A stretch of DNA of 33,906 nt from contig CANQQB010000019.1 in assembly GCA_947625845.1 (NCBI GenBank), forward strand, positions 1 through 33,906, in the 5' to 3' direction. Positions 30,802 to 31,098 of the stretch are shown piece by piece (position 1 is the first letter of the stretch; every line of letters begins with the position of its first letter). The notes under the pieces are model-generated. The model was given only the letters and a program-made list of their open reading frames with translations. It ran no database searches and was not told the DNA's origin. A program made the position numbers and the translations under genes. This stretch comes from an uncultured Oscillospiraceae bacterium (GTDB lineage: Bacteria; Bacillota; Clostridia; Oscillospirales; Oscillospiraceae).

Positions 30802-30830
30802 TTGACATGACAGGGCGCCGATGCTATAAT
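30802..30830 (+). promoter_or_regulatory. Consensus promoter of the metY leader transcript
   Basis: TTGACA (30802-30807), exactly 17 bp, TATAAT (30825-30830). Both hexamers are perfect consensus, so a control step downstream is to be expected. Confidence 0.88.
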
Positions 30831-30836
30831 CCCATC

Positions 30837-30859
30837 AAACCGATGGATTTACTTGGTTT
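30837..30859 (+). promoter_or_regulatory. AAACC-N13-GGTTT operator candidate of metY
   Basis: AAACC (30837-30841), 13 bases, GGTTT (30855-30859). It starts at the expected transcription start, seven bases after the -10, where a bound repressor would block initiation. Confidence 0.55.
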
Positions 30860-30886
30860 ATTCGGATCGGAAAGGAGGCGTACCGG

Positions 30887-31009
30887 ATGAAGGACCTGTT
30901 CCTTGCTCTTTTGCGAAGCAACTTTCGATGTGGACGAATGCTGAACTCCCGGGCTGAGAGAGCGGCCGGGCGTCCTGCTGCGTCCGTCGGGTGCCGTTGT
31001 ATGTGCTGA
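30887..31009 (+). CDS. 40-codon leader peptide with Cys-rich end
   Basis: AAAGGAGG lies eight bases before ATG at 30887. The peptide begins MKDLFLALLRSNFRCGRMLN and ends ASVGCRCMC at TGA 31007-31009; cysteines are codons 15, 36, 38 and 40. It lies between a consensus promoter and an intrinsic terminator, ahead of a sulfhydrylase gene, as leader peptides of attenuators do. It is not a known protein. Slow translation of the terminal Cys codons when charged tRNA-Cys is scarce is the likely sensing step (inference). Confidence 0.7.
   Translation: MKDLFLALLRSNFRCGRMLNSRAERAAGRPAASVGCRCMC
30946..30960 (+). promoter_or_regulatory. Antiterminator strand within the leader ORF
   Basis: CTCCCGGGCTGAGAG can pair over 15 continuous positions (12 Watson-Crick, three G-U) with CTTTTCAGTCCGGGAG at 31026-31041, which includes the first arm of the terminator. 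It can instead fold locally with GGCCGGG at 30964-30970. Two exclusive structures are the mark of attenuation. Confidence 0.65.
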
Positions 31010-31033
31010 GGCATACCCATGACCGCTTTTCAG

Positions 31034-31066
31034 TCCGGGAGCTTTTGAAAGAGCCCCGGATTTTTT
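31034..31066 (+). terminator. Attenuator terminator in the metY leader
   Basis: TCCGGG-A-GCTTT (31034-31045) pairs with AAGAGC-CCCGGA to 31060 (one bulge, TGAA loop) and is followed by six T residues (31061-31066). It ends 33 bp before the metY start codon. Confidence 0.85.
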
Positions 31067-31098
31067 GCTGAAAATTTTGGATCGAAAGAGGTTGCATT

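Follow-up and report, generated by a model that had tools for sequence, protein, structure and literature searches.

Leader-peptide attenuators of the trp and his type are known from Proteobacteria. The leader analysed here resembles them in combining a short ORF that contains pathway codons with alternative antiterminator and terminator structures, and in its proposed logic, in which a stalled ribosome turns the structural gene ON. It differs in that its sensor codons encode cysteine, often with methionine beside it, in its occurrence in Clostridia, and in carrying a near-invariant CGA-AUG codon pair five nucleotides before the antiterminator as well as, in one branch, a conserved peptide core. 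Cysteine leader peptides are also described from Actinobacteria, the mycobacterial ones being reported without conserved terminator hairpins in the accessible part of the source (PMC1262725), and polycysteine ORFs have been described in mycobacteria (Canestrari 2020, as cited in the accessible part of PMC13236596). As far as the excerpts of PMC1262725 describe them, the actinobacterial leaders share with ours a small ORF that lies ahead of sulfur genes and has Cys codons close to its stop, and they resemble our non-terminator class, whereas the NFRxGRM core, the CGA-AUG pair and the terminator architecture are features of the Clostridia leader. The actinobacterial polycysteine pattern, a Cys run near the stop and no terminator, is not the arrangement of the present locus, which has C-R-C-M-C and a terminator; its non-terminator relatives come closer.

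Leader-peptide attenuation in Firmicutes is represented by the His leader peptides of bacilli, which are set apart by their histidine codons and hisS-type genes as described in the available portion of PMC2965389. TnaC-type arrest peptides are comparable in having a conserved peptide with a frequent UGA stop right after the core, and in suggesting Rho as a possible output for terminator-free leaders; our leader differs from them in preceding biosynthetic or uptake genes, and arrest is only putative for it. The S-box and T-box also control Met and Cys genes in Gram-positives (Grundy and Henkin, cited in the accessible part of PMC1262725). Among the open-access full-text matches listed, a scope that leaves most subscription papers outside, we found no description of an NFRxGRM/CGA-AUG leader family. 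Within this partial coverage of the literature, leader-peptide attenuation is a known kind of control and the Clostridia Cys/CGA-AUG leader an apparently undescribed variant of it.

The leader lies ahead of metY in a 33,906-nucleotide stretch (the window) of the genome of an uncultured Oscillospiraceae bacterium, whose assembly is 2.5 Mb and 78.5% complete. Its elements are real and conserved (Table 1). The perfect promoter, the 40-codon ORF with a strong ribosome site, the Cys codons at the ORF tail and the intrinsic terminator were all found where a preliminary description had placed them. That description made no use of a fourth Cys codon, at 30929 (those of the tail start at 30992, 30998 and 31004), and the most conserved part of the leader, CGA-AUG preceded by NFRxG, is absent from it. 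As read from the sequence, the putative leader ORF with its Shine-Dalgarno sits between the promoter and the structural gene, as in known attenuators, and the antiterminator and intrinsic terminator strands overlap and are predicted by folding to be mutually exclusive. A simple terminator scan of the window missed the terminator at 31034–31066, presumably because of a bulge in its stem.

Table 1. Features of the leader and of metY in the window.
Feature	Position	Strand	Basis
sigma-70/A-type leader promoter, TTGACA-17-TATAAT	30802–30830	+	12/12 consensus match, spacing 17
Imperfect palindrome AAACCGATGGATTTACTTGGTTT over presumed start site	30837–30859	+	spotted by eye
Shine-Dalgarno AAGGAGG	30872–30878	+	sequence; eight nt ahead of start codon
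Leader-peptide ORF, 40 codons, MKDLFLALLRSNFRCGRMLNSRAERAAGRPAASVGCRCMC*	30887–31009	+	start, length and core kept in relatives
Core N-F-R-C-G-R-M	30920–30940	+	conserved across leaders
Cys15 codon UGU, proposed sensor codon	30929–30931	+	Cys at equivalent place in NFR-type terminator leaders
CGA-AUG codon pair, proposed pause and pivot	30935–30940	+	near-invariant in relatives
Antiterminator strand 1 (CUCCCGGGC in terminator-bearing members)	30946–30968	+	starts five nt after AUG
Terminal Cys codons (CRCMC), second possible stall site	30992–31006	+	sequence; terminal Cys recurs in relatives
Antiterminator strand 3	31020–31043	+	overlaps terminator 5' arm
Intrinsic terminator (predicted)	31034–31066	+	hairpin −16.3 kcal/mol, then six U
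metY 5' part (O-acetylhomoserine sulfhydrylase)	31099–31379	+	NCBIfam OAH_OAS_sulfhy and relatives
77-bp interspersed double-hairpin repeat inside metY	31380–31456	+	sequence and genome matches
Remainder of metY	31457–32459	+	NCBIfam matches

Strands 1 and 3 form 21 pairs on folding (−35.1 kcal/mol). The long-range partner strand proposed earlier thus exists and is longer than had been claimed, but "fully complementary" does not describe it, as the pairing includes G-U pairs, one bulge and one mismatch. None of 2,000 shuffles of strand 1 paired as well (shuffle mean −16.5, best −29.2), and the best alternative 25-nt leader segment as pairing partner reached −18.6. The folding energy of the whole leader was unremarkable (z −1.78), and it is therefore the specific 1:3 pairing together with conservation that carries the case. 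That unremarkable z value is what could be brought forward for a chance ORF near a chance terminator; this explanation is already contradicted by the shuffles and by the recurrence of the arrangement in many genomes with few reversed-pattern matches, and its probability is negligible.

Judged by its sequence, the window ORF belongs to a large Clostridia family of leader peptides of the form M...LLRxNFRxGRM, found as a small ORF upstream of metY in relatives, in which the last three core codons are almost always GGN-CGA-AUG. In the order, 85 of 394 genomes (own included) gave 92 matches to the pattern N-F/Y-R-x-G-(CGA)-M, with one for the reversed pattern; in a class-wide sample, 22 of 245 genomes gave 24, with four for the reversed pattern. 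Every match was read, and six of the former (L035, L055–L058 and L083, which lie within other genes or at their borders) and one of the latter (L220) were excluded as non-leaders. N, R, G, R and M of the core are invariant over 36 hand-picked leaders. Within the genus, the pattern occurs in five of 35 genomes, own included, and a metY match in 13. A variant pattern with CGC, CGG or CGT produced five matches in 216 genomes against ten for its reversed form, none of them leader-like by peptide context. Pfam and NCBIfam returned nothing for three leader peptides. The leader is also present in records titled as a spirochaete (Treponema; L163, L199) and as a lactic acid bacterium (Atopobacter; L176), which suggests transfer or mislabelled assemblies.

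Since these search patterns impose CGAATG, 80 loci fetched via the MetY protein alone were used as a less biased set. An NFRxGRM-type leader was identified in 36 of them. The Arg of GRM is encoded by CGA in all but one of these, L199 (Treponema zioleckii), which has CGG, whereas all six Arg codons occur in NFR; among the Arg codons of 162 metY genes, CGA accounts for 2.8%. Twelve of the 80 loci (13 sites) contain a strand-1-like site with a later partner, preceded by CGAATG at exactly five nucleotides in 11 loci. Eight of these 11 have codons rich in Cys, Met or Trp in place of NFRxG, for example M-C-C-R-M. Either leader form is thus present in 44 of the 80 loci and 36 are without by these criteria, among them L161, L178 and L179, which have divergent CGAATG ORFs. 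Over 162 loci, MetY itself has very low shares of Cys (0.10%), Met (0.22%) and Trp (0.34%) codons compared with 20 ORFs of the window (1.58%, 2.07% and 1.06%), as if sparing sulfur.

At gathering score, Rfam matched nothing in the window, and in 20 leader-bearing loci two tRNAs only, with no SAM riboswitch (S-box) or T-box; scanned permissively against Rfam, the leader matched isrG alone, at E 1.6. Among 20 metY loci taken as leaderless, one of which (L030) carries a variant leader, NSRFGRM, tRNAs alone were matched (in L143), so replacement of the leader by a riboswitch is not seen there. These results bear on the idea that the RNA alone switches, bound by a protein or ligand, with the ORF being incidental. 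The high sequence conservation of strand 1 agrees with that idea but is expected anyway, because strand 1 must pair with strand 3 while strand 3 pairs with strand 4. The start codon, Shine-Dalgarno and frame are conserved, whereas the core varies at synonymous positions, and together with the absence of Rfam families other than tRNAs from these loci this makes an RNA-only switch very improbable.

The terminator class is composed of one or more Cys codons, CGA-AUG, five nucleotides, strand 1, strand 3 and the terminator. In family f67, CGAATG-N5-CTCCCGGRC was found at 63 sites in 51 of 115 genomes with no reversed matches (33 of the 63 sites were read, one of which, L255, is not a leader); in the class sample it occurred in nine of 391 genomes, own included, with three reversed matches. 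When sites were selected by a pattern fixing CGAATG, the five-nucleotide gap and CCCG, 53 of the 57 had strand 3 and a terminator. Of the four sites with no recognised strand 3, L243, L249 and L250 look like true leaders overlooked by the search pattern and L255 does not. The window's own leader is grouped in this set with the nearly identical L006. By eye, the genes downstream of the 53 are metY in 24 cases (L087 included), MetQ-like lipoproteins in 19 (L229 confirmed), other OAH-sulfhydrylase-type genes in three (L235 confirmed), MetN in two (L061 confirmed), amino acid ABC permeases in two (L225), a cystathionine synthase/lyase-type gene in one (L232) and unassigned in two.

A Cys codon lies within four codons before Arg-Met in 51 of these 53 leaders, although the pattern does not require it and Cys makes up 1.58% of codons in 20 window ORFs; Met is found in the same interval in 36. 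The kind of control proposed earlier, Cys-codon leader-peptide attenuation, gains support from this fixed position, but the codon best placed to act as its sensor would be Cys15 and not the terminal GCRCMC on which the preliminary description had relied. The expectation that small ORFs of relatives would end in Cys codons was borne out in part: Cys is among the last three codons in 32 of the 53, and 22 end in R-C-stop (21 of these written CGATGTTGA), whereas 21 have no Cys there. At x of NFRxGRM, Cys occurs in 12 of the 14 NFR-type terminator leaders, the other two having Phe at position 15, versus six of 130 non-terminator leaders, counted regardless of relatedness. From these sequences, the Cys codon tends to precede CGA-AUG where a terminator is present and to follow it where there is none.

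Leaders with NFRxGRM are mostly terminator-free (130 versus 14), the 130 including many found by the pattern that imposes CGAATG. Their next gene is metY by BLAST in 107 cases. Three of the other 23 are next to metY all the same (L068, L116, L167). MetQ/NlpA-type lipoproteins, assigned by eye and confirmed by Pfam for L069, L109 and L119, follow in 14 cases and NMT1-type binding proteins in three; of the last three leaders, one has a ThiF protein downstream, one a transport permease and one an unassigned ORF. Matches to MetQ and MetN fall below the NCBIfam curated cut-offs. The stop codon directly follows GRM in 42 of the 130. The remaining 88 have a tail, with Cys in its first five codons in 81, that ends in UAA (46), UGA (35) or UAG (7). 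We also observed that UGA is commoner as the immediate stop (38/42; for example L011, L024 and L209) than after a tail (35/88). The spacers of 84 non-terminator leaders have a C/G ratio of 1.42 and 40% A, a composition that hints weakly at a Rho-dependent output. A hairpin formed by the NFRxG nucleotides was considered and rejected, as AGA or AGG at the first Arg (52/130) would break it.

These features invite an explanation by nascent-chain arrest, in which an 18-residue peptide ending in NFRxGRM would respond to a sulfur metabolite by stopping the ribosome at GRM and so set the downstream RNA, with the Cys codons tuning the response. The peptide is conserved while synonymous codons vary for N, F, the first R and G; the distance from the start with the best Shine-Dalgarno to M is 18 residues in 103 of the 130 non-terminator and all 14 NFR-type terminator leaders; and the 42 leaders that stop at GRM are consequently without a Cys codon after it. 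Leaders of the MCCRM type, however, carry the same switch without NFRxG, and we consider arrest as the primary signal rather unlikely.

Folding of 41 non-redundant terminator leaders was modelled with a ribosome mask placed at each codon, assumed to cover 14 nt on the 5' side and 12 nt on the 3' side of the first P-site base, at equilibrium and without kinetics. Up to and including the position at which CGA occupies the A site, the mean modelled probability of the antiterminator was 0.73–0.81 (0.81 at that position itself). It was 0.46 when AUG entered the A site, 0.11 after AUG had moved to the P site and 0.00–0.02 over the nine codons that follow. This drop between CGA in the A site and AUG in the P site would put CGA-AUG at the tipping point of the switch. 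The predicted mean recovered to 0.69–0.76 just past strand 1, and was 0.50–0.64 towards the ORF end and 0.50–0.56 near the tail. With no ribosome it was 0.67, not far under 0.73–0.81, and the OFF state would thus depend wholly on a ribosome held over strand 1. L006 is predicted to switch one codon later than the mean of the 41, its terminator probability being only 0.04 when AUG occupies the P site but 0.83 at the following codon.

The preliminary description had the terminal Cys cluster (30992–31006) as the sensor, with a ribosome there freeing strand 1 and blocking termination. When a ribosome is placed at the tail, the model indeed puts the L006 antiterminator close to 1.0, and the frequency of terminal Cys and R-C-stop endings noted above points the same way. 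L006 is equally near 1.0 with no ribosome at all, though, and the mean of the 41 near the tail lies below the ribosome-free level, so that a stall at the tail would give no distinct ON signal. Cys15 is ranked first as sensor because the tail is no more ON than the ribosome-free leader; moreover, the 21 leaders with no Cys in their last three codons contrast with the 51 of 53 that have Cys before CGA-AUG. We judge a tail sensor to be improbable. The tail GCRCMC is probably functional nonetheless, since it matches the recurring R-C-stop.

Conservation of the stems was assessed by exchanging strands between leaders (with a corrected strand 3 for L132, here and in the folding). Over 41 leaders, own 1:3 pairings averaged −27.7 kcal/mol versus −24.6 for swapped ones, but swaps were as good in fewer than 5% of cases in only eight of the 41, swapped partners often being nearly equal. 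Double changes are found mainly at two positions (G-C/A-U and A-U/U-A), and the terminator stem 3:4 hardly covaries (own −14.0, swapped −13.3). The antiterminator pairing is thus kept with modest covariation, as the preliminary description would have it, and the terminator stem shows almost none; covariation is modest because the strands are so conserved. A hairpin 1:2 (CCCGG with CCGGG, 30948–30970) was tried as an anti-antiterminator and set aside, being missing by eye in several leaders (L123, L172).

Based on the elements, their conservation and spacing, and the modelled dependence on ribosome position, the reading we favour, with moderate confidence, is a cysteine-starvation attenuator ahead of metY with Cys15 as the sensor and CGA-AUG as the holding step; we infer the ribosome pause at CGA-AUG, the occurrence of termination and cysteine as the signal. 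The ribosome would follow RNA polymerase into the leader ORF and, when Cys-tRNA is short, would halt once Cys15 is in its A site, while strand 1 is still a few nucleotides ahead. Free strand 1 would pair with strand 3, no terminator would form and metY would be transcribed. When cysteine is sufficient, the ribosome would advance to the slow CGA-AUG; there, or one codon on, its leading edge would cover the start of strand 1, strand 3 would pair with strand 4, and transcription would stop at 31061–31066. Plain run-through would also leave strand 1 open, so the ribosome would have to be held for the OFF state; candidates for this holding are slow decoding of CGA and, in one branch, the NFRxG peptide. 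The terminal Cys codons may provide a second stall site. CGA is decoded by an inosine-A pair. In a Salmonella his-leader assay, CGA was highly stalling and slower than CGU and CGC, whereas profiling work cited alongside found rare codons not to be slow in rich medium (both in the accessible part of PMC4046918).

As a counterweight to this attenuator reading, most NFRxGRM leaders have no terminator, the pattern is confined to few genomes of the genus, and the window's metY is interrupted. It is conceivable, and we propose it tentatively, that the combination of NFRxGRM and CGA-AUG serves as a programmed module for pausing or arrest to which lineages have wired different outputs, an intrinsic terminator in some and another output in leaders lacking one, CGA being a required slow step that parks the ribosome and the supply of Cys and Met setting whether it gets there.

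The interruption of metY, on which the preliminary description is silent, is the 77-bp insertion at 31380–31456. The window metY is 99% identical over its first 94 residues to three congeners, and the frame is open in the three closest congeners (G001, G003, G012); from its sequence, the repeat may inactivate metY in this assembly. It forms a double hairpin (GTCGTGC...GCACGAC and GGTATAACAGC...GCTGTTATACC) and is matched by 23 stretches of the genome. Some of these are arranged in tandem, with contig C63 carrying four in a row, the fourth incomplete; we take the repeat to resemble REP/BIME elements. In G001, the leader pattern is located near the end of another contig than metY (G001:C58:206-226), and the sequence before metY (L008) differs and is integrase-like by eye, a separation that reflects rearrangement or an assembly break.

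Near the palindrome at 30837–30859 lies a gene for an Rrf2-family regulator (29148–29591, minus strand), with IscR and CymR matches below curated cut-offs. Similar palindromes occur upstream of 34 of 106 non-terminator-class metY leaders versus five in a reversed control. The palindrome is a possible operator of a putative Rrf2/CymR-type repressor, and a second, transcriptional layer of control may act at the leader promoter.

With an attenuator as proposed, many Clostridia would share a cysteine sensor that works through translation and serves metY, methionine uptake and related genes. If the pause or arrest module were true, many Clostridia would have in common a sensor of the arrest type that reads the supply of sulfur amino acids. 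The near-absolute presence of CGA at a fixed distance from the switching strand implies that one synonymous codon should matter for regulation, and the CGA-AUG case bears on slow codons as timing parts in attenuators.
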